From: Prauserella isguenensis
GTDB taxonomy: Bacteria; Actinomycetota; Actinomycetes; Mycobacteriales; Pseudonocardiaceae
Assembly (NCBI RefSeq): GCF_014191605.1
Contig: NZ_JACHWU010000003.1
Span: 620,001-684,000, forward strand
DNA: 64,000 nt
Direction: 5' to 3'
Positions 6,455 through 51,193 of the stretch are shown here, one piece after another; positions within the stretch are counted from its first letter, which is position 1; every line of letters starts with the position of its first letter. A program made the position numbers and the translations under genes. The notes beneath the pieces were generated by a model. The model was not told the DNA's origin. It saw only the letters and a list, made by a program, of their open reading frames with translations, and made no database searches.

Positions 6455-7785
6455 GTGTCCTCCCTGGTCAGAAACTCTCCGAACGGCTCGGATCCGGGTT
6501 CGAAGTCGAGCTCGCGGCCGCGCAACCAGCTCGCGCGCACGACCCCCGCGAGCGCCCGGTCGTGGTAGGCGCTCACCGGGTTGCGGTGGTGCAGACTCGT
6601 GCGGTCGACGACGAACGCGTCGTCGGGGGCGAACACCGCGAAGTCCGCGTCGCAGCCGACGGCGATACGCCCCTTCCGCGATAGGCCGACCTGTTCGGCG
6701 GGGTTCCGGGCCATCCACCGCACGACGTCGTCGAGCGTGAACCCGCGTGCGCGGGCGCCCGTCCACACCGCGGGCAGGCCGACCTGCAGCCCGGCGATGC
6801 CGCCCCAGGCGTCGCCGAAATCCCCGGTGTCGAGCCGTTTCAGGTCGGGCGTGCACGGCGAATGGTCGGTCACGACGCAGTCGATCACGCCGTCGCCCAG
6901 CGCGCACCACAGCCGTTCCCGGTTGCCTGCCTCGCGGATGGGCGGGCAGCACTTGAACTCGGTGGCGCCGTCGCGGATCTCCTCGGCCACGAAGCTCAGG
7001 TAGTGCGGGCAGGTCTCGGCGGTGACGCGCACGCCGTCGGCGCGTGCCTGTGCGAGCAACGGCACCGCGTCCCCCGAGGCCAGGTGCAGGATGTGCACGC
7101 GCGCGCCCGTGCGGCGGGCGAGGTCGAGAACGCGGGCGATCGCCGTGTTCTCCGCGTCGCGGGGGCGGGAGCCGAGGAAGTCGGCGTACGCCCGGCCGTG
7201 GGCCGCGGGCGCGGCGTCGATCGTGTCGGCGTCCTCGGCGTGCACGATCAACAGCCCGTCGAAGTCGGCCAGTTCGCGCATCGCGTCCTCGAGCCCGGCC
7301 TCGTCGAGCGGGGCGAACTCGTCCACGCCCGAGTGCAGCAGGAAGCACTTGAACCCGAACACGCCCGCCTCGTGCAGTGGCCGCAGTTCGCCGCGGTTGC
7401 CCGGGACCGCGCCACCCCAGAACCCGACGTCGACGGCGATGCGCCCCGCGGCCGCGCGGCGTTTGACGTCGAGCGATGCGACGTCGACCGTCGGCGGCAG
7501 GCTGTTGAGCGGCATGTCGACGAGCGTGGTGACGCCGCCCGCGGCCGCTGCGCGCGTGGCGGTGTCGAAGCCCTCCCAGTCGCTGCGGCCGGGATCGTTG
7601 ACGTGGACGTGCGTGTCGACCAGGCCGGGCAGCAGCACCTCGTCGTCGCGCAGCTCCACCACGCGGTCGCCGGTGAGCGCGCCGTAGTCCTCGACCGCGG
7701 CGATGCGCCCTCCGGACACACCGACGCTGCAGGACCGCTCACCGTCGGGCATCACCGCACGCGGCGCGCGGAACACCAGGTCCAT
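6451..7785 (-). CDS. allB: Allantoinase
   Basis: This is a 444-residue cyclic amidohydrolase converting allantoin to allantoate. Metal ligands are visible in [10 protein letters not shown], the carboxylated lysine in [11 protein letters not shown], later histidines in HAED and HILHLAS, and the aspartate in VVTDHSPC. The ATG at 7785 follows GAGGAGGTG at ideal spacing; upstream in-frame starts are ignored. It is the first gene of allB-alc and is divergent from the XRE-cupin regulator, which probably controls it. Confidence 0.96.
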
Positions 7786-13269: not shown

Positions 13270-13677
13270 GCGTACCTCGGCGATCGGCCGGGTACGCCGA
13301 AGGACATGGCGAATGACGCGGCGAAGTTCGTTCCGCCCGAGCGCGGCAAACGGCGGATCCACCAGAAACCCTCCCGGACCGAGGTCGTCGCGTGCCGGCC
13401 GTGGCTCACGGCCGAGCTGGCAGCCGTGCGCCCGGACGTGGTGGTGCTGTTGGGCGCGACCGCGGCGCAGGCGGTGTTCGGCACGTCGTTCCGCGTCACA
13501 CAGCGCCGCGGCGAGGTGATCGACATGCCGGACGACACCACGCCTGACGACACCGCCGCCTCGCCTGCGCGAGCGGTGGCGACAGTGCACCCGTCGTCGG
13601 TGCTGCGTTCCCGCGACCGCGACGCCGACTACGAGGCGCTCGTCGACGACCTCCGGCAGGCGCGGGAAGCCCTCTAG
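13270..13677 (+). pseudogene. Truncated UdgX-type uracil-DNA glycosylase remnant
   Basis: The frame encodes the C-terminal half of a UdgX-like glycosylase. It keeps the R-loop GKRRIHQKPSRTEVVACRPWL, whose histidine forms the covalent DNA link in UdgX, then RPDVVVLLGATAAQ and the HPSSVLR motif. The N-terminal ~100 residues with the GEQPG motif A and the Fe-S cysteines are absent; upstream is the permease. The first recognisable residues (GDRPG) may be a residue of motif A fused to the middle by deletion. Possible starts are ATG 13306 or the GTG at 13234 inside the permease gene. Probably non-functional as a glycosylase. Confidence 0.75.
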
Positions 13678-13780
13678 GACCGGCCCGGCATCGGGACCGG
13701 GCCGGGCGACAGGACCGGCGCGGCATCAGGACCGGCGCGGCATCAGGGCCGAAGCTGCGTCAGGGCCGGAGTTGCGTCAC
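13678..13780. repeat. Degenerate 17-bp tandem repeat
   Basis: Six units of about 17 bp follow the UdgX remnant directly. Two identical copies of GACCGGCGCGGCATCAG (13713-13729 and 13730-13746) are flanked by diverged units. The last unit and part of the one before encode the C-terminal residues of the minus-strand hydrolase. Confidence 0.8.
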
Positions 13781-15404: not shown

Positions 15405-15505
15405 CCTTCCTACGTAGCGCACACCGGCCTTCCGAGCGGAGGGGTCACCCCCGGCCGATGCGTACGCCACCCGGGACGTGGCCGGGCAGCGGCTTCCGGG
15501 AAGCG

Positions 15506-15554
15506 ACAACACGGCCCCCGGAAGCTGCAACACGGTCCCCGGAAAGCGCAACAC
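15506..15554 (-). repeat. GTGTTGC 21-bp-period array, three units
   Basis: GCAACAC on the plus strand (GTGTTGC on the minus strand) occurs at 15506 (variant ACAACAC), 15527 and 15548, exactly 21 bp apart, separated by GG(T/C)CCCCGGAAG-like sequence. The array lies between the convergent 3' ends of the TetR gene and the next minus-strand gene. Confidence 0.85.
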
Positions 15555-15573: not shown

Positions 15574-16374
15574 TTACCGGGGAGCGCCCCCGTCGCCGTC
15601 GTCGGCGTCGTCCCCTCGGGGACCGTCGTCGGCCGGAAGGCCCGCGACTTGACGCACCAGGCCGCGGAACTCGACCAGCGTGATCGCGTTGTCGGGTGCA
15701 GCGACGGCGGTCTCGACACGGCGCAGCCGCTCTGCGGCGAGGCGTTCGCCGAGCGTCACGTCGAGGGGCAGGAACGTCATCGTGGTGCGGGAGAACTCGT
15801 CGACCTCGGACAGCAGCGGGTGGTGCACCGCGACGTCGACGAGGCCGGCGTCGTCGTCGACCTGCGCCACGACACGCACGTCGTCGAGGTCGAACCGCTG
15901 TCCCGCGAAGTTCACCGCGACACCCGCAGGGTCGGGCACGGGCGGCACCGAGTCGTGGAACTCCCAGATCGCGTCGTCCGGCGGCGCGGCCTGCCGCCAC
16001 GCGTCGGTGTAGGGCCGCAGTTCCGGATCCTCGCGGCTGCTGACCACGAGCGCGTAGATCGCGCGGCCGCCGCGGTCGACGCTGAACTGGAGCCCGGGGT
16101 GCACGGCCGCCACCGGTTCGACGAGCAGGTTCTCCGCACGCTCGGTGTCGCCCTCCCCCAGCGCCGCACTCAGGTGCGGTAACAGCTCGGCCCACGTGGA
16201 CCAGAACTCCGCAGCCGCGGCGTGCGGGTCGTCCGGGACGGGCTGCTCCGGCCACGGTGTGCGCGGGTCGGGCGCATCCCCGACCGGCGTACTCTCCGCG
16301 GCGACTCCGGTGCCGTCGTCACCCCGGTGTCCGACGCCGTCCGCACCGGACCGTTTCCTGCGGAACAACCCCAT
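15574..16374 (-). CDS. Hypothetical protein, DUF695-like N-terminal part
   Basis: This 266-residue soluble protein starts MGLFRRKRSG, with a disordered, acidic N-terminal 45 residues. It has no membrane segment. The block EFWSTWAELLPHL... VHPGLQFSV ... ARSTY-like then LRPYTDAWRQAAPPDDAIWEFHDSVPP resembles proteins with DUF695-type domains; function is unknown. The C-terminus is again acidic and glycine-rich. It is followed by an array of 21-bp repeats. The start lies 11 bp from the 3' end of the MetE-like gene and both are on the minus strand, so they may form an operon. Confidence 0.6.
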   Translation of the reverse strand: MGLFRRKRSGADGVGHRGDDGTGVAAESTPVGDAPDPRTPWPEQPVPDDPHAAAAEFWSTWAELLPHLSAALGEGDTERAENLLVEPVAAVHPGLQFSVDRGGRAIYALVVSSREDPELRPYTDAWRQAAPPDDAIWEFHDSVPPVPDPAGVAVNFAGQRFDLDDVRVVAQVDDDAGLVDVAVHHPLLSEVDEFSRTTMTFLPLDVTLGERLAAERLRRVETAVAAPDNAITLVEFRGLVRQVAGLPADDGPRGDDADDGDGGAPR

Positions 16375-18458: not shown

Positions 18459-19106
18459 ATGGACACCCCCAGAAAACGCCCACGCCAGCAGCGATCCCGG
18501 TTCACGGTCGATGCGGTCCTCGAAGCGGCTGCTCGGGTTTTCCAGCGCGAAGGCATGGCGGCGACCACCAATCGCATCGCCGAACGCGCCGGTTTCTCCA
18601 TCGGCACCCTGTACCAGTACTTCCCCAACAAGGTCGCGTTGCTGAGCGCGCTGGCCGAGCGGCACATCGAGGACGCGGCCGCCGCCCTGCGCGCCACCTT
18701 CGCCGAACTCGACGACTCGCGACCGGGCTGGGAGGACACCGTCCGGGCACTCGCCGCGACGCTGGCGGCGCTGCACGCCGACCGGCCGCGGCTGCACACC
18801 GTGCTGTACGACCTCGCTCCACGGGTGCCCGACGGCGTGGCACGCCTGCACGCACTCCACGCCGAGACCACGACGTCACTCGCCCGGCACGTGCGCCGGT
18901 GCGGAGTCGCCCCTGTCGGTGACGGTGGCGCTGGTGCCGGCGAGCAGGAGCAGGCGGACCGCACCGCGGCGCTGTTGGTGCAGACCGCTGAGGTCACCGT
19001 CCACCGCATCGTGCTGGCCGACACCGCTTCCGGCGCCGCAACCGACGACGTCGCCGCACCTCTGGCCAAGACGCTGCTGGCCCTCGTCCCGGCACCTACC
19101 CGCTGA
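18459..19106 (+). CDS. TetR-family transcriptional regulator
   Basis: This 215-residue protein has a clear TetR HTH at about residues 15-60 (AVLEAAARVFQREGMAATT...ERAGFSIGTLYQYFPNKVAL). The C-terminal ligand domain is not informative. It is divergent from an alpha/beta hydrolase gene, a likely target. Its 3' end overlaps the 3' end of the acyl-CoA ligase on the other strand by 11 bp. Confidence 0.9.
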   Translation: MDTPRKRPRQQRSRFTVDAVLEAAARVFQREGMAATTNRIAERAGFSIGTLYQYFPNKVALLSALAERHIEDAAAALRATFAELDDSRPGWEDTVRALAATLAALHADRPRLHTVLYDLAPRVPDGVARLHALHAETTTSLARHVRRCGVAPVGDGGAGAGEQEQADRTAALLVQTAEVTVHRIVLADTASGAATDDVAAPLAKTLLALVPAPTR

Positions 19107-20721
19107 AGCGGTCGCGCAGTTCCCGTTTGAGAATCTTGCCCGACGCGTTACGCGGCAGGTCGTCGACGAAGCGCACCTGCTTGGGCACCTTGAACGTTGC
19201 CAACCGGTCCTTGACCCACTGCGTCAGCTCGTCCTCCGCGGGCGCGCCGCCGCCCTTCGGGACCACCACGGCGGTGATGGCCTCGATCCACTTCTCGTCG
19301 GGCAGGCCGACCACGGCCACCTCGCCGACGTCCGGATGCGTGTACAGCGCGTCCTCGACCTCACGCGAGGCCACCATGACGCCGCCGGTGTTGATCACGT
19401 CCTTGATGCGGTCGACGACGAAGACGTAGCCCTCCTCGTCCAGCCGCACCAGATCACCCGAGTGGAACCAGCCGCCCGCGAAAACCTCCTCCGTCTCCTC
19501 CGGCTTGTCCCAGTAGCCGAGGCACAGCTGCGGCGACCGGTAGACGATCTCGCCCTCGCCGCCGGGAGGGACGTCGCCTCCCTCGGCGTCGACGACCCGC
19601 GCCTCGACGAACAGTGCGGGACGGCCCGCGGACTCGGGTCGGGTCTCGTGGTCCTCGGGACGCAGCACGGTCGCCAGCGGGCCGATCTCCGACTGGCCGA
19701 AGCAGTTGTAGAACCCGAGTTCCGGCAGCTTCTCGCGGAGCCGCTGCAGGATCGGACCCGGCATGATGGACGCGCCGTAGTACGCCTTGCGCAGCGCGGA
19801 GAGGTCACGGGCGCCGAAGTCCGCGTGGTTGGCGATCGCCACCCACAGGGTCGGCGCGGCGAAGAACGCACCGTGCCGGTCGTCGGCCATGCGGCGGAGC
19901 ACATCGGCCGGGTCGGGGGTTTCGACGATCGTGTTGGTGGCACCGACCGCCAACCACGGCATGAGGAACACGTGCATCTGCGCCGAGTGGTACAGCGGCA
20001 TGACGTGCAGCGGATCGTCGTCGGCCGCGAGGTCCAGGTCGACGATGCACGAGAGGTACTCGTGCACGAGGGCGCGGTGCGTCATCATCGCGCCCTTGGG
20101 CTTCGACGTCGTACCGGACGTGTAGAGCAGCTGGGCGAGGTCGGTGTCCGCGACCGGGGTGTCGAGCACCGCGTCGAGGTCTGCGCCGTCTCCGGTGCTC
20201 GCCACCGCCAACAGCGAGTCGTCCGGGGTGTCCCGCAGCGGCAGGATGCGCTCGACGGGCAGGTCGAGGGCGTCCAGGTTGCCTCGCAGTGCCGGGTCGG
20301 TCAGCACGACGCGACTGCCGGACTGGGTGATCAGGTACGCGAGCTCGTCACCGGTGAGGTTGTAGTTGACGGGCACGTGGACCAGTCCCGCGCGGGCACA
20401 CGCGAGGAACCCGATGAGGAAGGCGTCGGAGTTCTTGCCGTAGGCGGCGACGCGGTCGCCGTGGTGCAGGCCCAGCGAGAGCAGGTACGCGGCGGCGCGG
20501 CTCACGGCGGCGTCCAGCTCGGCGTATGTCCACGTTCGGTCGGCGAAGCGGATCGCCACCCGATGCGGCGTCCGCGAGGCACTGCGCCGCGGGATGTCGG
20601 CGATCGTGCTGGACCGAAGCGCGCTCGAGGCGGCGCCGGTGGAGGCGCCGACCGGGGCCGCGGACGAGGTGGCGCTTCCGGACGTGGCACCGCCGGCCGT
20701 GGTGGACCCTGCGTTCGACAT
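19096..20721 (-). CDS. Acyl-CoA synthetase (AMP-forming fatty-acid CoA ligase)
   Basis: This 541-residue member of the ANL superfamily activates a carboxylic acid to acyl-AMP and then acyl-CoA. The P-loop motif YTSGTTSKPKGA is near residue 198. Then come GQSEIGPL, the hinge YVFVVDRIKDVINTGG and the catalytic lysine motif PRNASGKILKREL near the C-terminus. The first 45 residues are Ser/Ala/Gly-rich and atypical. ATG 20721 follows GGAGGAG at ideal spacing, although the frame is open into the repeat region upstream. The acid substrate is not evident. Confidence 0.92.
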   Translation of the reverse strand: MSNAGSTTAGGATSGSATSSAAPVGASTGAASSALRSSTIADIPRRSASRTPHRVAIRFADRTWTYAELDAAVSRAAAYLLSLGLHHGDRVAAYGKNSDAFLIGFLACARAGLVHVPVNYNLTGDELAYLITQSGSRVVLTDPALRGNLDALDLPVERILPLRDTPDDSLLAVASTGDGADLDAVLDTPVADTDLAQLLYTSGTTSKPKGAMMTHRALVHEYLSCIVDLDLAADDDPLHVMPLYHSAQMHVFLMPWLAVGATNTIVETPDPADVLRRMADDRHGAFFAAPTLWVAIANHADFGARDLSALRKAYYGASIMPGPILQRLREKLPELGFYNCFGQSEIGPLATVLRPEDHETRPESAGRPALFVEARVVDAEGGDVPPGGEGEIVYRSPQLCLGYWDKPEETEEVFAGGWFHSGDLVRLDEEGYVFVVDRIKDVINTGGVMVASREVEDALYTHPDVGEVAVVGLPDEKWIEAITAVVVPKGGGAPAEDELTQWVKDRLATFKVPKQVRFVDDLPRNASGKILKRELRDRFSG

Positions 20722-20828
20722 TGAGCTCCTCCGTGATCGCGACGCGTTCGACCGTGCGTCGTGAACGCGATCCTCCCCCAGCCGAATGAACCGTTCAACA
20801 CCCCCACGCCTGCACCCAGCCGCGGGCC

Positions 20829-21038
20829 GTGTTGCAGGCTCCGGGGGCCTTGTTGCGGGTACCAGGGATCGTGTTGCGAGTTCCGGTGGCTGTGTTGCGG
20901 GTACCAGGGGTCGTGTTGCGAGTTCCGGTGGCTGTGTTGCAGGTTCCAGGGGTCGTGTTGCGAGTTCCGGGGGCTGTGTTGCAGATTCCAGGGGTCGTGT
21001 TGCGAGTTCCGGGGGCTGTGTTGCGGGTTCCGGGTACC
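20829..21038 (+). repeat. Main GTGTTGC 21-bp-period array, ten units
   Basis: GTGTTGC heads start at 20829, 20850 (TTGTTGC), 20871, 20892, 20913, 20934, 20955, 20976, 20997 and 21018, exactly 21 bp apart. The rest of the unit is about GNGTTCCNGGGGNC. Alternate units are more alike (one reads GAGTTCCGG, the next GGGTACCAGG or AGATTCCAGG), giving a 42-bp higher-order period in part of the array. Confidence 0.95.
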
Positions 21039-21187
21039 GGCGGCGGAGATGGCAAGTCTGGCTGTTGCGATGTTTGACTCCGACCGACCCGGCGACGCTG
21101 CCCACGACATGCCGCCTCACGCCCCGAAACCGCGTGGCCCCAAGCCCGACTGATTCCGGGACGGGTTCGGCGGCTGCGCTCGAAGGA

Positions 21188-21295
21188 GCAACACGGCACC
21201 GTGTCAATGCGGGGTGGTGGCCGGGCACAACACGGCCCCCGCAAAGGCAACACGGCCCCCGCAAAGCGCAACACGGCCTCCGGAGGGCGCAACAC
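21188..21295 (-). repeat. Opposed GTGTTGC 21-bp-period array, about five units
   Basis: On the plus strand GCAACAC occurs at 21188, 21227 (variant ACAACAC), 21247, 21268 and 21289. The last three are 21 bp apart, with GGCCCCCGCAAAG-like linkers. It points toward the ten-unit array, so the two face each other across about 150 bp. Confidence 0.85.
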
Positions 21296-21360
21296 GGCCG
21301 CCGGGGGCACGTGCGTCCGGGTGCAGGACATGCGCGTAGGACGGGTTGCGCCTAGGAAGG

Positions 21361-22452
21361 TTACGCCGTGGCGGCGATCTTCGCGCTGCCGAGGACGACG
21401 TCTCCCGCCTCGGCGTCGGGTCGGTAGAGGACGGCGACCTGCCCCGGCGCGACGCCCGTGAGCGGTTCGCGCAGCGACATGCGCACCGCGTCGCCGTCGA
21501 CCTCCGCCACGGCCGGGGCCATGCCGCCGTGCGCGCGTACCTGTACGACGCACTCGGTCGGGCCGGACAGCGGCTGCTCCGACGGCCAGATCGCGCGGTC
21601 GGCGTCGATCGTGGACACGGAGAGCTCCTCCGAGGAACCGACCTTCACGGTCCCGGAGACCGGTTCGAGCGAGAGCACGTACCGCGGCTTGCCGTCGGCC
21701 GCGGGCGCGTCGATGCCGAGGCCCTTGCGCTGGCCGACCGTGAAGCCGTGAACCCCCGTGTGCTGTCCGAGCACGGCACCGGTCTCGGCGTCGACGAGGT
21801 CGCCGGGACGCTCGCCGAGCCGGTTCTCGAGGAACTTCTTCGTGTCGCCGTCGGGGATGAAGCAGATGTCGTGGCTGTCGGGCTTCTCGGCGACGGCGAG
21901 GCCCCGATCGGCCGCCTCCTCACGCACGTCGGGCTTGCGCGAACCGCCGAGCGGGAACATGGCGTGCCGCAGCTGCTCCGGTGTCAGCGACGCCAGCACG
22001 TACGACTGGTCCTTGTGGTCGTCGGCGCTGCGGCGCAGTTCCGGCACGCCGCCGGAAACGGACAGCCGGGCGTAGTGCCCGGTGCACACCGCGTCGAAGC
22101 CGAGCGCGATCGCCTTCTCCAGCAGCGCTTCGAACTTGATCTTCTCGTTGCAGGTCACGCACGGGTTGGGGGTCCGGCCCGCCGCGTACTCGCCGACGAA
22201 GGTCTCCACGACCTCCTCGGTGAACCGCTCGGCGAAGTCCCACACGTAGAACGGGATGCCGAGGATGTCGGCGGCCCGCCGGGCGTCGCGGGAGTCCTCG
22301 ATGGTGCAGCACCCGCGCGCGCCGGTGCGCAGCGTGCCGGGCTTCGCCGACAACGCCAGGTGCACACCCGTCACGTCGTGTCCGGCCTCGACGGCACGCG
22401 CCGCCGCCACCGCCGAGTCCACGCCCCCGCTCATCGCGGCCAGTACGCGCAT
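21361..22452 (-). CDS. mnmA: tRNA-specific 2-thiouridylase MnmA
   Basis: This 363-residue enzyme thiolates U34 of Lys, Glu and Gln tRNAs. The PP-loop SGGVDSAV is at residues 8-15. The catalytic cysteines are in [12 protein letters not shown] and CFIPDGD, and GHYARL and VGQRKGLGI are family blocks. The stop of the upstream cysteine desulfurase gene lies 4 bp from its start, so the sulfur donor and the thiolase are cotranscribed. Confidence 0.97.
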
Positions 22453-36393: not shown

Positions 36394-36477
36394 CAATCGC
36401 GGAGTTTACGAAGCGGCAGCCATGAGCCCCGACCGGGCGTGGGTGTCCCACAAGACACAGGAGGCGGCTCATGGCTG
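36381..36477 (+). promoter_or_regulatory. Direct-inverted-direct 12-bp repeats at the gltB-gltD junction
   Basis: GGCTCATGGCTG (36381-36392, gltB end), its exact complement CAGCCATGAGCC (36417-36428) and GGCTCATGGCTG again (36466-36477, including the gltD ATG) form two mutually exclusive 12-bp stems. The second stem would cover the gltD start codon and lie next to its AGGAGG. The flanking direct copies extend to 19 bp (GAGGCGGCTCATGGCTGAC), suggesting an 85-bp segment was duplicated or inserted between formerly overlapping genes. Confidence 0.75.
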
Positions 36478-37925
36478 ACCCCAAGGGTTTTCTGAACACG
36501 AAGCGGGAGACGCCGAAGTCTCGTCCCGTCGACATCCGGATCAAGGACTGGCGTGAGGTCTACGAGGACTTCGAACGTACGAAGCTGAAGGACCAGGCGG
36601 GCCGCTGCATGGACTGCGGCATCCCGTTCTGCCATCAGGGGTGCCCGCTGGGGAACCTGATCCCCGAGTGGAACACCCTGACATGGCGGGACGACTGGGC
36701 CGACGCGATCGAGCGGCTGCACGCGACGAACAACTTCCCGGAGTTCACGGGCACGCTGTGCCCCGCGCCGTGCGAGACGGCGTGTGTGCTGGGGATCAAC
36801 GACGATCCGGTGACGATCAAGCGCGTCGAGATCTCGATCATCGACCGCGCGTGGGAGGAAGGCTGGGTCACGCCGCAGCCGCCGACCACGAAGACGGGCA
36901 AGAAGGTCGCGGTCGTCGGGTCGGGCCCGTCGGGCCTGGCGGCGGCGCAGCAGTTGACGCGTGCGGGACACGACGTGGTCGTGCTCGAGCGGGCCGACGC
37001 GATCGGCGGGCTGCTGCGCTACGGCATCCCCGAGTTCAAGATGGAGAAGCACCGCCTGGACCGGCGTCTCGACCAGATGCGCGCGGAGGGCACCGAGTTC
37101 CGCACCAACGTGAACGTCGGTGTGGACATCACCGCGGACGAGCTGCGCGCGCAGTACGACGCGGTCGTGCTGGCGGGCGGGGCGACGGCGTGGCGCGACC
37201 TGCCCGCGCCCGGCCGTGAGGCCACAGGCGTCTACCAGGCGATGGAGTACCTGCCGCCGGCGAACAAGGTGGCGAGCGGCGAGCTCGACGTCTCGCCGCT
37301 CGACGCGGCGGGCAAGGACGTCGTGGTCATCGGCGGCGGCGACACCGGCGCCGACTGTGTGGGCACGGCCCATCGGCAGGGCGCCAGGTCGGTGACGCAG
37401 CTGGAGATCATGCCGAAGCCGCCGGAGTCGCGCGCCGAGGCGCACCCGTGGCCGACGTACCCGATGATCTACCGCGTCTCCTCGGCCCACGAGGAGGGCG
37501 GCGAGCGGCTGTACTCGGTGAACACGCAGGAGTTCGTCGCCGACGCCGACGGCAATCTGCAGGCGTTGCGGATCGTCGAGGTGCAGCGCGCCGAGAGCGG
37601 CGGGTTCGAACCGGTCGAGGGCACCGAGAAGGAACTGCCCGCGCAGTTGGTGCTGCTGGCGATGGGCTTCGTCGGGCCGCAGAAGCAGGGCCTGATCGAG
37701 GACCTCGGCGTCGAGCTGGACGAGCGCGGCAACGTCGCGCGGGACGCGGATTTCCGCACGAGCGTGGACAACGTGTTCGTGGCCGGCGACATGGGCCGCG
37801 GGCAGTCGCTGATCGTGTGGGCGATCGCCGAGGGCAGGTCGGCGGCCGCGGGCGTCGACGCGCATCTCACCGACCGGGACATGCTCCCGGCGCCGATCGC
37901 GCCGACGGACCGTCCGATGTCGTAA
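36471..37925 (+). CDS. gltD: Glutamate synthase (NADPH) small subunit
   Basis: This 484-residue subunit feeds NADPH electrons to GltB. The N-terminal 4Fe-4S cysteines are in GRCMDCGIPFCHQGCPLGN and LCPAPCETACVLG. The FAD motif VVGSGPSGLAAAQQL is at about residue 147, the NADPH motif VIGGGDTGADCVGTA at about 287, and the C-terminal GDMGRGQSLIVWA binds FAD. It follows gltB after 77 bp rather than overlapping it. Confidence 0.98.
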   Translation: MADPKGFLNTKRETPKSRPVDIRIKDWREVYEDFERTKLKDQAGRCMDCGIPFCHQGCPLGNLIPEWNTLTWRDDWADAIERLHATNNFPEFTGTLCPAPCETACVLGINDDPVTIKRVEISIIDRAWEEGWVTPQPPTTKTGKKVAVVGSGPSGLAAAQQLTRAGHDVVVLERADAIGGLLRYGIPEFKMEKHRLDRRLDQMRAEGTEFRTNVNVGVDITADELRAQYDAVVLAGGATAWRDLPAPGREATGVYQAMEYLPPANKVASGELDVSPLDAAGKDVVVIGGGDTGADCVGTAHRQGARSVTQLEIMPKPPESRAEAHPWPTYPMIYRVSSAHEEGGERLYSVNTQEFVADADGNLQALRIVEVQRAESGGFEPVEGTEKELPAQLVLLAMGFVGPQKQGLIEDLGVELDERGNVARDADFRTSVDNVFVAGDMGRGQSLIVWAIAEGRSAAAGVDAHLTDRDMLPAPIAPTDRPMS

Positions 37926-37994: not shown

Positions 37995-38064
37995 GTGTTC
38001 CGGGTCCCGGGGCCTGTGTTGCGGATTCCGGGGCCTGTGTTGCGGCTTCCGGGGATCGTGTTGC
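37995..38064 (+). repeat. GTGTTGC 21-bp-period array, four units
   Basis: Heads occur at 37995 (GTGTTCC), 38016, 38037 and 38058, exactly 21 bp apart, starting 1 bp after the gltD terminator stem. Two adjacent units are almost identical (GATTCCGGGGCCT). Confidence 0.9.
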
Positions 38065-38116
38065 GGTCCGCACACGCTGCGTCGCAGGTCTCGATCCGGT
38101 CGCGGTGAACGCGCAA

Positions 38117-40584: not shown

Positions 40585-41505
40585 ATGATGAGGACCTTGT
40601 TGGTCCGCGGCATGCTCGCGGGCCTCGCCGCCGGACTGCTCGCGACCGTGTTCGCCTTCTTCGTGGGTGAACCGCCGGTCGACACCGCCATCGGACTCGA
40701 GGACTCCCCCAGCACGGAATCCCACGCCGACACACGCGGCGAAGCCCGACCCGGCCACAGCGCGCCACACGACGACACGGCGTCCCACGGCCACAGCGCG
40801 CCACACGACCACAGCGCCCCACACGACCACGCCGCCCCGCACGACCACGCCGAATCCTCCGGCCATGCCGCGGAATCCGGCGCCACATCCGGACACGCGC
40901 ACGGTGACGACGCGCTCGTCGGCCGTGGGGTGCAGAGCACGTTCGGTCTGCTGACCGGCGTGACCGGGTACGCCGTCGCGGTGGGTGGCCTGTTCGCGAT
41001 CGCGTTCGCCGTCCTGCAGGGCAGGGTGACCACGCTGCCGCCCCGCGTGTCGGCGGCGCTGCTCGCCGCGGGCGGATTCACCGTGGTGGTGCTGGTGCCG
41101 TTCCTGAAGTATCCGGCGAATCCGCCTGCGGTGGGCCAGGCCGGAACGATCGAGGACCGCACCGCCCTCTACTTCGGATTCCTGGCGCTGTCGGTGGTCG
41201 CCGCGATACTGGCGATGGCCGCCGGCAGAGCGGCGGCCGACCGCGTCGGTGCCGCGAGCGGCGGCCTGCTGGGCGTGGGTGCCTACGTCACCGTGATGGC
41301 CGTGGCGGGGGCGCTCCTACCCGCGGTCGACGAGGTGCCGAACGACTTCCCCGGCTCCCTGCTGTGGGACTTCCGCCTCGCCTCGCTCGGCACGCAGGTA
41401 GTGCTGTGGGGCGCGCTCGGCGTCACCTTCGCCGTGCTGGCCGAGAAGGCCCTCGGGTCCCGGGCGCCGCAGGGAACCGGCGGCCCGGTTGCGGTGCGTC
41501 AGTGA
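40585..41505 (+). CDS. cbtA: CbtA, cobalt transporter membrane subunit
   Basis: This 306-residue membrane protein has about five to six segments. The first (GMLAGLAAGLLATVFAFFV) is followed by a long extracytoplasmic His/Asp-rich loop with repeated APHDH units, then GYAVAVGGLFAIAFAVLQ and later spans. The loop is well suited to bind cobalt. It follows cbtB after 16 bp. The start is the first of two adjacent ATGs. Its 3' end converges with cobD, with which it overlaps by 7 bp. Confidence 0.9.
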   Translation: MMRTLLVRGMLAGLAAGLLATVFAFFVGEPPVDTAIGLEDSPSTESHADTRGEARPGHSAPHDDTASHGHSAPHDHSAPHDHAAPHDHAESSGHAAESGATSGHAHGDDALVGRGVQSTFGLLTGVTGYAVAVGGLFAIAFAVLQGRVTTLPPRVSAALLAAGGFTVVVLVPFLKYPANPPAVGQAGTIEDRTALYFGFLALSVVAAILAMAAGRAAADRVGAASGGLLGVGAYVTVMAVAGALLPAVDEVPNDFPGSLLWDFRLASLGTQVVLWGALGVTFAVLAEKALGSRAPQGTGGPVAVRQ

Positions 41506-45125: not shown

Positions 45126-45980
45126 ATGACCACGACCGCATGGTCCGAGTTCGACACCGACACCGCCGTCACCGCATCCGGGGACGGCCACTACTCCACG
45201 ACCGTCTCGGACCGCTGGGCGATACGCGAGGGCGTGGCCAACGGCGGATATCTGCTGGCATTGTGTGTGCGGGCGCTCGGCGATCAGATGGCGATGCCCG
45301 ACCCGCTGGTGGTGTCGGCACACTTCGTGCGGCCCGGCACACCCGGCCCCGCCGAGATCGCCACCGAGGTCGTGAAACAGGGCCGCAGAACGGCGACCGG
45401 CTGTGCCCGTCTGTCCCAGCAGGGCGGCGCGGTGCTGCTCGCGCAGGCCACGTACGCCGACCTCGAGGGGGTGTCCGCTCCGGCCGCCGGCAACGGCCCG
45501 GTCGCCCCGCACGACTCCGTCGCCCCACCCGAATCGGTCGCGTTCACCAACACCGCACCCGCGCTCGCCGGACCGGAGACCTGTACGGATCCGCTGACGC
45601 TGAGCGAGCAGCCCGGCGCCACCGTGGCCGCGCGCATCGAGTACCGGCTCGATCGGGTCCCCGGTTTCTGGTACGGCACGCCGTCCGGGGAGCCGATCTC
45701 CGAGTTCTGGATGCGGTTCGCCGACGGGCGCGACGCCGACACGACCGCCCTCGCGATGCTCGTCGACGCCGCTGCCCCCGTCGCGCTCGACCTCGGCGTG
45801 GGTGGATCGTCGACGATCGAGCTCACCGTGCACGTCCGGGCCAGGCCCGCACCGGGTTGGCTCGCCTGCCGCGCGTTCACGAAGCATCTGTCCGGCGGAC
45901 ACCACGAGGAGGACTTCGAGATCTGGGACTCGCGCGGCGTGCTGGTCGCCCAGTCCCGGCAGCTCGCCCTCGTCCGGTGA
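45126..45980 (+). CDS. TesB-like acyl-CoA thioesterase
   Basis: This 284-residue double hotdog protein has an N-terminal hotdog with VANGGYLLALCVRALGD and HFVRPGTPGPAEIATEVVKQGR. The C-terminal hotdog has FWMRFADGRDADTTALAMLVDAAAP and TVHVRARPAPGWLACR. This matches the actinobacterial TesB/4HBT_3 family. It probably hydrolyses acyl-CoA; chain length is unknown. It is unrelated to the flanking cobalamin genes. The ATG follows GAGAGGGG. Confidence 0.88.
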   Translation: MTTTAWSEFDTDTAVTASGDGHYSTTVSDRWAIREGVANGGYLLALCVRALGDQMAMPDPLVVSAHFVRPGTPGPAEIATEVVKQGRRTATGCARLSQQGGAVLLAQATYADLEGVSAPAAGNGPVAPHDSVAPPESVAFTNTAPALAGPETCTDPLTLSEQPGATVAARIEYRLDRVPGFWYGTPSGEPISEFWMRFADGRDADTTALAMLVDAAAPVALDLGVGGSSTIELTVHVRARPAPGWLACRAFTKHLSGGHHEEDFEIWDSRGVLVAQSRQLALVR

Positions 45981-48510: not shown

Positions 48511-49106
48511 TCGATGCCCCGCTGGCCCTTTTGCCCGGCGTCCATGGGGTGTTTGACCTTCGACATCTCGGCGACGAGATCGGCGGAGTCCAGCAAGGCC
48601 TGCGGAGCGTTGCGGCCGGTGATCACCACGTGCTGACGGCCGGGCCGGTCCCGCAGCGTCTCCACCACGTCGTCGACGTCGACCCAGCCCCAATGCAGCG
48701 GGTAGGTGAACTCGTCGAGCACGTAGAAGTCGTGCGTCTCCTCGCCGAGCCTGCGTTTGATCTCCGTCCAGCCCTCGCGGGCGCTGGCGGCGTGGTCCTC
48801 GTCGGTGCCCTTCTTGCGGGACCAGCTCCAGCCCTCGCCCATCTTGTGCCACTCGACGGGGCCGCCCTGGCCTGTCTCGCCGAGCGTGCGCAGCGCGTTC
48901 TCCTCACCCACACGCCACTTGGCGGACTTGACGAACTGGAACACACCGATGTTCCAGCCCTGGTTCCACGCCCGCAGCGCCATACCGAACGCCGCGGTGG
49001 ACTTGCCCTTCATCGATCCCGTGTGGACCGCCACGATCGGGCGGTTGCGCCGCTGCCGCGTGGTCAGTCCGTCGTCCGGCACCGCGGCCGGCTTCCCCTG
49101 CGGCAT
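48504..49106 (-). CDS. cobO: Corrinoid adenosyltransferase CobO
   Basis: This 200-residue enzyme adenosylates cob(I)yrinate a,c-diamide. The P-loop is VHTGSMKGKSTAAFGM (Walker A); ENALRTLGETGQGG, YVLDEFTYPLHWGW and ITGRNAPQALLDSADLV are family blocks, ending KGQRGIEW. It sits between the chelatase subunit gene (stop and start share the overlap TGATG) and cobB. Confidence 0.97.
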   Translation of the reverse strand: MPQGKPAAVPDDGLTTRQRRNRPIVAVHTGSMKGKSTAAFGMALRAWNQGWNIGVFQFVKSAKWRVGEENALRTLGETGQGGPVEWHKMGEGWSWSRKKGTDEDHAASAREGWTEIKRRLGEETHDFYVLDEFTYPLHWGWVDVDDVVETLRDRPGRQHVVITGRNAPQALLDSADLVAEMSKVKHPMDAGQKGQRGIEW

Positions 49107-51193
49107 CAGGCCGCCCTCCGTTTCACCTCGTCGGTCAACTTCTCCGCCGCCACGTCCCCGACAGCCACGTGTTCCGCTCCGAGCCGGCCCGCCAGGGTCT
49201 TCGCCAGGCCGAGCCGCATGCGGCCGGTCTCACAGTCCATGACCACAGTGGACACGCCCGTGCGCGCCAGGCCGTCCGCGGCGGTGTGCGCACGGGCCAG
49301 CGCCTCCGGCCCGCTGGTGGCGCGGCCGTCGGTCACCACCACCAGCAACGGCCTGCGGTCGCCGTCGCGCAGCGCCTCGACCCGCAGCACCTCGGCGGCC
49401 CGCGTCAGCCCTTCGGCGAGCGGCGTGCGCCCACCGGTCGGCAACTGCTCCAGCCGGGCGGCCGCGACGTCGACGCTGCCCGTCGGCGGCAGCGCCACCT
49501 CCGCCTCGGACGCGCGGAACGTGACCAACCCGACCTTGTCCCTGCGCTGGTAAGCGTCCAGCAGCAACGACAGGACGGCGGTCTTCACCTCACGGATCCG
49601 TGCTTTCGACCCCATCGAGCCGGACGCGTCGACACACAGCAGGACGAGGTTGCCCTCCTTGCCTTCCCGCCGGGCGAAGCGCAGATCCCGGGGCAGCACG
49701 ACCGGGCCGGCACCGTCGGCGCGTGGGCCACGCTGCGGCCGGTGCCGGGCCGCCGCACGCAAGGTGGCGACGAGGTGCGGCGATCCGCTCCGGGTGCCGT
49801 CGGGCCGGACGCCGACGATCCGGCCCCGCTCCCCTTCGGACCGGGAACGCCTGCCGTCCGCGCCGGAACCGGCGCCGTCCACGGTGAACAGCTTCGCCCG
49901 GTACGGCGTGTCCGTGCCTGCGCGCTGCTCGGTGCGCGGTGCGGCACCGTCCTGGCTCCCCGCGTCCGCGTCGCCGTGTTGCGGGCCCGGGGGCTCGTGT
50001 TGCGGATTCCGGGGCTCGTGTTGCGGGTTCTCGTCGGGCGCTCCCCCGCCGGGGCCGCCGTCGGGACCACTGTCGTCGGGACCACTGTCGTCGGGTCCAC
50101 CATCGTCGGGACCCTCCGGGTCGCCCTCGCCCCCGTCGTCCGGGCCGTCGCCGTCCGGGCCGTCGCCGTCGGGGTCGTCCTCCGGTGGCTGGGCGTCCTG
50201 CAACGCCTGTTCGAGCTGTTCGGAGTCGATTCCCGGCGCGTCGAACGGGTTGCGCCTGCGCCGGTGCGGCAACGCCAGCCTCGCCGCGACGCGGATGTCC
50301 TCTGTGGACACAGTCGTGCGGCCGCACCAGGCCGCGTGCGCCACGGCGGTGCGTGCCGTGACGATGTCGGCCCGCATACCGTCGACCTCGAACGCCGCGC
50401 ACACCTCGGCGATCTGCAGCAGCGCCTCGTCGGTCAACTCCACCGACGGCAACAGTTTGCGCGCCGCGGCGATCTCGGCGGCAAGGGAGGCGTCGTCGTC
50501 GGCATAGCCCGCGGCGAACGCGTCCGGATCCGATTCGTACGCGAGTCGCCGCCGCACGACCTCGACCCGCTCGGCGGCGTCGCGGCTGGACGAGACCTCG
50601 ACGGTCAGCCCGAATCGGTCGAGCAGCTGGGGCCGCAGTTCGCCTTCCTCGGGGTTCATCGTTCCGATGAGCACGAACCGAGCGGCGTGCGAGACCGACG
50701 CACCTTCCCGCTCGACCGTCACCCGGCCCATCGCCGCCGCGTCGAGCAGCGTGTCGACCAGGTGGTCGTGCAGCAGGTTGACCTCGTCGACGTAGAGCAT
50801 CCCGCGGTGCGCACCCGCGAGCAGGCCGGGCTGGAAGTCCGTGACCCCGTCGCGCAGCGCGCGTTCCAGGTCGAGCGAGCCGACGACGCGCTCCTCGGCG
50901 GCCCCGACGGGAAGTTCCACCAGCCGCGCGGGCCGCTGGGACGACGAGACCGTCCGGTGTGGACCGTCGGGACACGACGGGTCGGGCGCCTCCGGGTCAC
51001 ACGAGAACCGGCAACCGTCGACGACGTCCACATCGGGCAGCAGCCCCGCGAGGGCGCGCACCATGGTGGACTTCGCCGTGCCCTTCTCCCCGCGTACCAG
51101 CACGCCGCCGATCGACGGTGAGATGGTGCACAACAGGAGCGCCAGGCGCAGTTCGGCCATTCCGACGACTGCCGTGAACGGGTACGGCCGCAT
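49106..51193 (-). CDS. Fused ChlI/ChlD-type chelatase AAA+/VWA subunit
   Basis: This 695-residue protein has an N-terminal AAA+ ATPase (Walker A GEKGTAKST, Walker B GMLYVDEVNLL). A long acidic Asp/Gly/Pro linker spans about residues 340-450. A C-terminal VWA domain carries the MIDAS motif DASGSMGSK and TDGRATSG. It resembles mycobacterial Rv2850c, also upstream of cobO-cobB, and probably works with CobN (not in window) to insert cobalt. The linker contains three 21-bp GTGTTGC repeats in frame, encoding PQHEP-type peptides (49976-50024). A B12 riboswitch lies upstream. Confidence 0.9.
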   Translation of the reverse strand: MRPYPFTAVVGMAELRLALLLCTISPSIGGVLVRGEKGTAKSTMVRALAGLLPDVDVVDGCRFSCDPEAPDPSCPDGPHRTVSSSQRPARLVELPVGAAEERVVGSLDLERALRDGVTDFQPGLLAGAHRGMLYVDEVNLLHDHLVDTLLDAAAMGRVTVEREGASVSHAARFVLIGTMNPEEGELRPQLLDRFGLTVEVSSSRDAAERVEVVRRRLAYESDPDAFAAGYADDDASLAAEIAAARKLLPSVELTDEALLQIAEVCAAFEVDGMRADIVTARTAVAHAAWCGRTTVSTEDIRVAARLALPHRRRRNPFDAPGIDSEQLEQALQDAQPPEDDPDGDGPDGDGPDDGGEGDPEGPDDGGPDDSGPDDSGPDGGPGGGAPDENPQHEPRNPQHEPPGPQHGDADAGSQDGAAPRTEQRAGTDTPYRAKLFTVDGAGSGADGRRSRSEGERGRIVGVRPDGTRSGSPHLVATLRAAARHRPQRGPRADGAGPVVLPRDLRFARREGKEGNLVLLCVDASGSMGSKARIREVKTAVLSLLLDAYQRRDKVGLVTFRASEAEVALPPTGSVDVAAARLEQLPTGGRTPLAEGLTRAAEVLRVEALRDGDRRPLLVVVTDGRATSGPEALARAHTAADGLARTGVSTVVMDCETGRMRLGLAKTLAGRLGAEHVAVGDVAAEKLTDEVKRRAA
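49976..50024 (+). repeat. GTGTTGC 21-bp-period array inside the chelatase gene
   Basis: Heads at 49976, 49997 and 50018 are exactly 21 bp apart and lie within the coding linker, antisense to the gene. They encode repeats of the form R/E-NPQHEP. Three units equal 21 codons, so the frame is kept. Confidence 0.92.

Follow-up and report, generated by a model that had tools for sequence, protein, structure and literature searches.

The best-known high-copy repeats at bacterial gene ends are palindromic elements of the REP type. In plasmid iterons, a handful of direct repeats, each spanning some two helical turns, are bound on one face of the DNA at a replication origin. TTF-I acts as a DNA-bound roadblock at the rDNA, and TRIT terminators are known from M. 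tuberculosis. REPs are palindromes of 20-40 bp with a tetranucleotide tag, which lie downstream of genes, between tandem or convergent genes and sometimes within genes; the GTAG type is tied to RAYT transposases (PMC3733652, in excerpt). Term-seq ends in Streptomyces clavuligerus comprise two stem-loop classes, with and without a U-rich tract, and one class without a stem-loop (PMC8269248, in excerpt). Roadblocks formed by Rap1 or dCas9 are orientation-dependent (review PMC10310618, in excerpt).

In this study, we describe arrays of phased direct repeats in Prauserella isguenensis and other Pseudonocardiaceae. Like REP and BIME elements (GTAG- and CGTC-tagged), the arrays occur in many intergenic copies downstream of genes, in tandem and convergent gaps and occasionally within genes, with a tetranucleotide at one end of the unit. 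Unlike the palindromic REPs, they are direct repeats of an exact 21-bp period, and the Prauserella GTGTTGC type is neither palindromic nor shows covariation. The terminators of S. clavuligerus likewise lie behind genes, but the P. isguenensis arrays have no conserved stem. In gene-end placement and in a possible role in supercoiling, the arrays resemble the gyrase sites of E. coli BIME-2, from which they differ in not being REP-based and in having lineage-specific units; a role of gyrase would be by analogy. By a similar analogy, DNA-bound roadblocks and insulators (LacI, yeast Reb1, Rap1) are protein-bound sites in the path of the polymerase, as we propose for the arrays. Both gyrase at BIME-2 and the roadblock proteins are comparisons of how the arrays might work only. 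The roadblock cases in the excerpted part of PMC10310618 include no strictly phased arrays at numerous bacterial gene ends. No description of arrays of this kind was found in titles and abstracts of the open-access literature, which is weak evidence of absence; within that literature, none of the known kinds with testable defining features fits the arrays.

Phased arrays in the window and in the genome

The window is the whole stretch of 64,000 nt that was analysed, and positions without a contig or locus name refer to it or, where stated, to the genome of P. isguenensis. Its arrays and the genes next to or containing them are:

15492..15554, minus strand: array of three units in a convergent gap, 19 bp past the end of gene 15574-16374 (minus)
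19096..20721, minus strand: AMP-binding enzyme gene, whose 5' end adjoins the plus array
20829..21038, plus strand: array of ten 21-bp units with GTGTTGC heads, partly a 42-bp higher-order repeat
21188..21194, minus strand: stray GTGTTGC, out of register
21213..21295, minus strand: array with four heads, facing the array at 20829-21038
21361..22452, minus strand: mnmA-like gene with Pfam tRNA_Me_trans domains, whose 3' end adjoins the arrays
37995..38099, plus strand: array of about five units, the outermost degenerate, 69 bp past gene 36471-37925 (plus)
49106..51193, minus strand: AAA / VWA Mg-chelatase-like gene, which holds the 49976 array
49976..50038, plus strand: array of three units, antisense within the coding gene 49106..51193, in its linker

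Genes were called by a purpose-written simple Markov gene finder, whose starts are approximate and whose stops are exact where the call is right. The start of the AMP-binding gene near 20721 was inferred from orthologue N-termini, the gene finder having given 20559.

The initial annotation reported ten heads at strict 21-bp steps from 20829 to 21018, about five opposed units at 21188-21295 and a gap without genes. The plus array is as described: its heads start at 20829, 20850, 20871 and so on to 21018 in exact 21-bp steps throughout, the second (20850) reading TTGTTGC with one mismatch. The opposite-strand array exists but is smaller, with three to four units plus one stray. Its exact heads lie at 21289-21295, 21268-21274 and 21247-21253 in 21-bp steps; the fourth, GTGTTGT, follows 20 bp on. 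Both arrays do occupy the gene-free gap between the AMP-binding enzyme gene and mnmA. That two arrays face each other, to which the annotation had drawn attention, is nothing special, such pairs being frequent in the genome and the relatives having one array, both or neither. Elsewhere in P. isguenensis (G000:C1:100419-100474), two facing arrays of one convergent gap run into each other head on, GTGTTGC and its complement together giving GTGTTGCGCAACAC. The window holds 20 head pairs (at most 2 mismatches) as compared to a mean of 0.46 across 100 dinucleotide shuffles; the pair at 7749 is probably due to chance. Tandem repeats of other periods are also present: 18 bp at 40744-40852 and 45501-45541 (CCACAGCGCGCCACACGA-like; GTCGCCCCACACGAATCC), possibly a second repeat family, and 17 bp at 13676-13779 (AGGACCGGCCCGGCATC and TCAGGGCCGAAGCTGCG).

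A genome scan for GTGTTGC-N14-GTGTTGC, which the annotation had suggested, was positive. The 4,949,102-bp genome of P. isguenensis contains 202 exact pairs (104 forward, 98 reverse) and no match to the reversed control pattern. A 1.26-Mb sample of this genome held 52 arrays; 51 of the 52 comprise 2-6 units (42-126 bp). Its exact heads form 118 pairs at 21 bp, 2 at 20 bp and 1 each at 22, 23 and 24 bp. The sample consists of the contiguous first 0.8 Mb of contig 1, the window, which was chosen by the finding itself, a further 0.2 Mb and ten stretches picked after arrays had been listed, mostly at listed arrays. Iterons share with the arrays direct repeats of about two helical turns; an iteron cluster is confined to a replication origin, and the 52 arrays and 202 genomic pairs are dispersed.

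Head and period are constrained more than the linker. Among 168 P. isguenensis units, information content is 1.67-2.0 bits in the head columns and 1.91 in column 16, and it falls below 0.5 in columns 9, 10 and 19. Neighbouring units (386 pairs) differ at 0.18 of 7 head positions as compared to 3.69 of 14 linker positions, a comparison which favours the head, heads having been admitted with up to 2 mismatches. This agrees with the earlier proposal that the head is selected while linkers vary. Exact 21-bp steps separate 511 of 548 neighbouring heads lying 17-25 bp apart (159/174 in P. isguenensis, 352/374 in the named Prauserella species). In the arrays, one length change thus corresponds to about 55 linker substitutions (548 x 3.69 / 37), as compared to 4.1 in other intergenic DNA aligned between P. 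isguenensis and the named species (3019 substitutions, 741 short gaps). Length changes between heads are thus about thirteen-fold rarer than expected from other intergenic DNA, a rough estimate since the array ratio comes from within arrays and the intergenic ratio from between species. Near-invariant heads together with this depletion make core and period look selected.

The period also emerged from a motif-free self-similarity search of gaps of at least 80 bp. In P. isguenensis, 42 of 497 gaps contained 21-bp tandems, 37 of them with GTGT-17-GTGT. Period 20 gave 5 gaps and period 22 gave 1; periods 15-19 gave 8-27, which we would put down to shorter windows clearing the threshold more readily. 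Relatives with 21-bp-tandem gaps (those with GTGT in brackets) were G186 with 2 (2), G149 with 8 (5), G003 with 4 (4), G067 with 4 (4), G133 with 3 (2), G033 with 3 (3), G116 with 4 (4) and G095 with 3 (3). In four genomes where GTGT arrays are rare or absent (G021, G043, G113, G027), 21-bp tandems occurred in 2 of 163 gaps at identity 0.64, none with GTGT, and in no gap at identity 0.67 in 100 kb of each. One of these stretches (G021:C1:1000001-1100000) showed a rise in intergenic lag-21 self-similarity (z 3.0), without tandems at identity 0.67. Ahead of the first head, GTGT was not enriched at -21 in the P. isguenensis sample; in the named loci it was, standing at -21 in 14 of 108 cases and at -20 and -22 in 3 each.

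Unit types and orthologous places in the Pseudonocardiaceae

Arrays with the full head were seen in part of one genus only. Among 200 family genomes, GTGTTGC pairs number 202 in P. isguenensis and 85-471 in five of the six other genomes of its genus; the sixth (G149) lacks them, and counts in other genera are 0-5. A stricter pattern found 74 stretches in a collection of named genomes, all 74 in Prauserella (rugosa, aidingensis, halophila, alba, salsuginis). The initial annotation had suggested a scan of related Pseudonocardiaceae for GTGTTGC pairs. Beyond that part of the genus, the feature that keeps returning is GTGT with the 21-bp period. A second unit type, GTGTYCTGC, forms 187 pairs in G116, 58 in G067, 57 in G033 and 16 in P. 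isguenensis among 120 genomes, and in genus g4 61 in G003, 63 in G103, 9 in G049 and 0 in G081.

The wider class was therefore defined by four GTGT at exact 21-bp steps with all other positions free. G149 has 277 matches to this pattern. At least 20 matches occur in 24 of 200 Pseudonocardiaceae genomes from eight genera (g1 7/7, g4 4/4, g10 1/1, g21 1/2, g25 7/10, g27 2/10, g32 1/6, g17 1/5), whose reversed-pattern counts are 0-20 (G160 20, G003 13, G148 11; G086 of g17 has 8 as compared to 25). Any match is found in 66 of the 200 genomes and none in 134, including sister species of array-rich ones (for example in g27 and g32), so that the signal is dispensable. G137 has 28 forward matches to the reversed control pattern and none to the four-GTGT pattern; its repeat is of a different nature. 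Of 394 genomes sampled across the class (P. isguenensis, one further member of the family, 392 from other families), 43 gave any match; outside P. isguenensis these were, among the matches listed (ten each for G293 and G498), single repetitive loci, often equalled by the control count. Among the matches listed, multi-locus arrays were seen in Pseudonocardiaceae only. The exact Prauserella pattern had no match in the viral_contigs collection.

Units are alike within a genome and different between lineages. The following consensuses are each based on 12-31 units from 3-8 arrays, with GTGT imposed by the search:

G149: GTGTCAGCAnyynGCGTCGCC
G003: GTGTCCkGCrnTCnsGACGyy
G186: GTGTTnGCyGsysCsGGCGsC
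G197: GTGTTkGCCGyTCCsGnCrsC
G160: GTGTCCGCAsyTCCyGCACGC
G009: GTGTyCGCsnkyCnyGynssC
G020: GTGTCCGCsryCTGyGCACsC
G148: GTGTCGyCCCsysrCGTmGCC

Outside GTGT, these eight consensuses and the P. isguenensis unit have in common a pyrimidine at position 5 and a G at position 16; many units of the GTGTYCTGC type, on the other hand, lack G16.

At some loci the place of an array is conserved while its units are swapped. Relatives were compared in windows of about 60 kb around mnmA, picked without regard to arrays there. The mnmA gap carries a plus array in P. isguenensis, G067, G133 and G095 (GTGTTGC) and in G116 (GTGTCCTGC units), a minus array in P. isguenensis, G133, G033 and G095 (likewise GTGTTGC), and no array in G149. 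Past gene 36471-37925, plus arrays lie in the same orientation in P. isguenensis, G067, G033 and G095; in G067 and G033 the array opens with GTGTYCTGC units, to which GTGTTGC units are chained. The place matching 49976 holds a plus array in G067, G133 and G033. For some window arrays, such as 15492, no counterpart was found at the orthologous place of the compared relatives, where most neighbours of 15492 had no reciprocal match; these cases are neutral evidence. In comparison with the named Prauserella loci, two P. isguenensis arrays on contig C1, 223770 (plus) and 224651 (minus), recur in L051 and L123, the latter also in L098; 337239 (plus) recurs in L072 and L106, and 347696 (plus) in L076 and L101. 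Recurring arrays share gap and orientation and differ in unit number. Arrays of L056 and L118 are missing in P. isguenensis, and that of L062 is reversed relative to 246710. These examples come from loci chosen for carrying arrays and are given without a formal count, and the named loci and the numbered relatives are apparently overlapping sets.

An alternative is a selfish or neutral minisatellite, whose units would spread and expand by recombination or slippage, homogenise and survive where they do least harm, behind genes and in protein linkers. In its favour, the distribution is patchy between sister species, unit number varies at orthologous places, the window array contains the 42-bp higher-order repeat and one array sits in a coding linker. 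The mnmA gap is short where units are few or absent (150 bp in G116, 100 bp in G149) and at least 390 bp as called where arrays are longer. Neutral homogenisation, however, would hit the whole unit, yet heads are near-invariant and linkers vary, and length changes are depleted to the extent given above. Orientation bias and the persistence of places with swapped units would need extra assumptions, and we regard this explanation as rather doubtful.

Placement, orientation and folding

The arrays are mainly a gene-end element. The initial annotation had proposed mapping the copies relative to gene ends and had itself missed this point. In 1.064 Mb of P. isguenensis (start of contig 1, the 0.2 Mb and the window), counting gaps of at least 40 bp, arrays were present in 15 of 118 where the genes converge, 15 of 335 between tandem genes and 3 of 157 where the genes diverge (convergent vs divergent, p = 0.0004). 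The first head lies a median of 22 nt past the same-strand stop (41 P. isguenensis arrays, of which the 20829 array is measured from a 56-residue ORF taken as spurious). A total of 204 pooled arrays divides into 103 in convergent gaps, 46 tandem sense, 16 tandem antisense, 10 in divergent gaps, 12 in predicted ORFs and 17 at locus edges.

Since a convergent array always follows a same-strand gene by geometry, only the tandem sense and antisense counts and the stop distances in convergent gaps are informative on orientation. Pooled tandem arrays are sense in 46 and antisense in 16 cases (p = 0.0002), and 70 of 103 convergent arrays are nearer the stop they follow, 33 nearer the other (p = 0.0003). 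Both p values are too small, because some loci are orthologous and the named loci and those of G148, G197, G020, G160 and G009 were fetched for carrying arrays; nor are the two tests independent data. By set, the tandem sense to antisense and the convergent own-stop to other-stop counts are 13:6 and 22:6 in P. isguenensis (52 arrays), 26:6 and 34:16 in the named Prauserella (110 arrays, 74 loci) and 4:0 and 11:4 in G148, G197, G020, G160 and G009 (23 arrays from 19 non-overlapping loci of 30 fetched). The sense bias is absent from G003, G149 and G186 (19 arrays; 3:4 and 3:7), which would suit a minisatellite. The placement expected of roadblock sites, behind genes with an orientation preference, is thus found in the pooled arrays and not in this last set. 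Back-to-back arrays, minus then plus and a few bp apart, recur in G197 (C1:3514868-3515016; L246, L251); Prauserella pairs face each other.

Some arrays read against their gene recur in relatives, namely 337239, the plus array beside mnmA and 49976. The sequences neighbouring 16 divergent or antisense arrays were inspected, and no common regulator was evident. As 21 is a multiple of 3, ORFs run through the 20829 array in several frames on both strands, and array 49976-50038 is translated as a 7-residue repeat of the NPQHEPR type in the Mg-chelatase-like protein linker. A general coding reading was rejected: the offset from stop to array keeps no fixed frame (11, 18 and 12 in the three phases) and the variable unit columns are not every third one. 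The same linker also contains a 15-bp tandem repeat at 50059-50113.

A preference for gene ends and convergent gaps, together with an exact two-turn period, is what a topological element would show as well, in which phased sites attract DNA gyrase or a nucleoid protein to absorb positive supercoils ahead of the polymerase leaving a gene. DNA gyrase is universal, whereas the arrays are patchy with units differing between genera; an orientation bias, as seen in the pool, is not expected of a two-fold symmetric enzyme, and nearly all P. isguenensis arrays span just two to six units. We consider this possibility unlikely, even though BIME-2 and the regions downstream of highly transcribed operons are enriched in gyrase cleavage sites and the motif of the enzyme shows a phased 10-bp G/C variation (PMC6379681, in excerpt).

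We found little sign of a conserved RNA structure. Adjacent linkers of P. isguenensis units pair at 0.751, as do permuted ones (0.751; 386 pairs), without covariation; pairing of the variable columns 10 and 19 is at chance and intra-unit pairing likewise at the permuted level. Tandem hairpins with a GTGTTGC loop, suggested by the self-complementary look of the consensus linker GGNTTCCGGGGNCC, were rejected for the P. isguenensis type, in which pairing is at the permuted value; folding also changes sign between lineages. Whole P. isguenensis arrays (49) fold with z of -1.2 in sense and -0.8 in antisense. When two-unit stretches were compared with mononucleotide shuffles, they folded better in P. 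isguenensis, G186 and G003; G197 and G009 were about on a par with their shuffles, and G149, G160, G020 and G148 showed no advantage. With single units there was some advantage over shuffles in G186, G197, G003 and G148, and those of P. isguenensis folded worse. There is accordingly no structure common to all lineages; a weak one may exist in some.

Nor do the arrays look like ordinary terminators. The best 45-nt fold at gene ends is -25.9 with arrays (n=26) and -25.1 without (n=369), shuffled values being -22.9 and -20.8. Hairpins are no scarcer where a gene end has an array, and the arrays are therefore no visible replacement for hairpin terminators. The stable conserved stem-loop of intrinsic terminators, with or without a U tract, was not found in the P. 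isguenensis type, and other lineages are mixed. Between 15000 and 22500 of the window, 2 terminator-like sites were found as compared to 2.0 in shuffles, one of which overlaps the minus array. An Rfam search of 20700-21400 gave one sub-threshold match (22.6 bits, gathering 100) and none above threshold. Concerning other RNAs of P. isguenensis, ARAGORN called a selenocysteine tRNA at L036:15738-15826, and no 5S rRNA was found in the assembly. The head GTGTTGC resembles a TGYG pause consensus; in other lineages, however, GTGT is followed by different letters, and a reading as pause site was dropped.

These results bear on two further explanations. The transcribed repeat might be a linear 3'-UTR signal for termination of the Rho/NusG type or for RNA turnover. 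The mostly sense orientation in the pool and the short distance past the stop speak for it. Against it stand the missing linker covariation, the modest whole-array fold scores and the two-unit stretches of four lineages that fold no better than shuffles; moreover, a linear RNA signal needs no exact 21-nt period, and antisense arrays recur in relatives. We judge such an element to be quite improbable. Mobilisation by a RAYT transposase, as for REP/BIME-type elements, is very improbable indeed. Single units of four lineages do fold somewhat better than shuffles; those of P. isguenensis fold worse and lack covariation, and a search with PF01797 (Y1_Tnp) gave no match in the P. isguenensis genome, the model being found in 5 of 14 control genomes. 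The habit of location is alike, REPs lying downstream of genes in tandem and convergent gaps (PMC3733652, in excerpt).

A putative DNA signal at gene ends

What speaks for a signal at the level of DNA is that the period is exactly two turns, that the core is conserved and that covariation is lacking. Gene-end placement and the orientation bias of the pool speak for a function in transcription as it leaves genes. We therefore favour, at a probability of about 0.4, the reading that the arrays are phased sites for a putative DNA-binding protein which limits transcription at gene ends. The arrays would be DNA-level signals chiefly at the 3' ends of genes, in which the core of each 21-bp unit (GTGT in the lineages found) recurs on one face of the helix. 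A putative sequence-specific DNA-binding protein would occupy the units side by side; cooperative binding on one helix face is compatible with the arrays. The row of bound protein might stop or slow an RNA polymerase leaving the gene, or an antisense polymerase entering it, and neighbouring genes, above all convergent ones, would thereby be insulated. Copy number, period, core, gene-end placement, the orientation bias of the pool, lineage-specific units and, at some loci, a conserved place with swapped units are observed; protein binding, its polarity and its effect on transcription are inferred. What counts most against a simple terminator are the arrays in antisense, divergent or intragenic positions, the set lacking an orientation bias and the patchiness of the distribution; a roadblock likewise has to contend with 16 of 62 tandem-gap arrays being antisense, 10 of 204 lying in divergent gaps and 12 of 204 inside predicted genes.

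That units are uniform within a genome and change between lineages argues for a reader changing along with them, or for drive; likeness within and difference between genomes are expected if array and reader evolve together. Species-specific rDNA terminators, and satellite DNA with its binding proteins, offer a comparable co-evolution. Tentatively, although we hold this to be rather doubtful, the Pseudonocardiaceae may possess a system in which a fast-evolving DNA-binding protein co-evolves with many helically phased arrays that mark and insulate gene ends. Place, direction, GTGT core and 21-bp phase would be kept over species, and the remaining unit would be rewritten genome-wide when the specificity of the reader shifts.

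If the arrays are selfish, they represent a minisatellite whose core and helical phase sit under unexplained constraint. As direct repeats in phase and without conserved pairing, the arrays would mark or insulate gene ends in a manner different from REP-type palindromes. The arrays point to an undescribed DNA signal at gene ends of one actinobacterial family. With units swapped at fixed places while period and core persist, the joint change of a genome-wide signal and its reader, a question usually put to eukaryotic satellites and rDNA terminators, would become directly testable in culturable bacteria.
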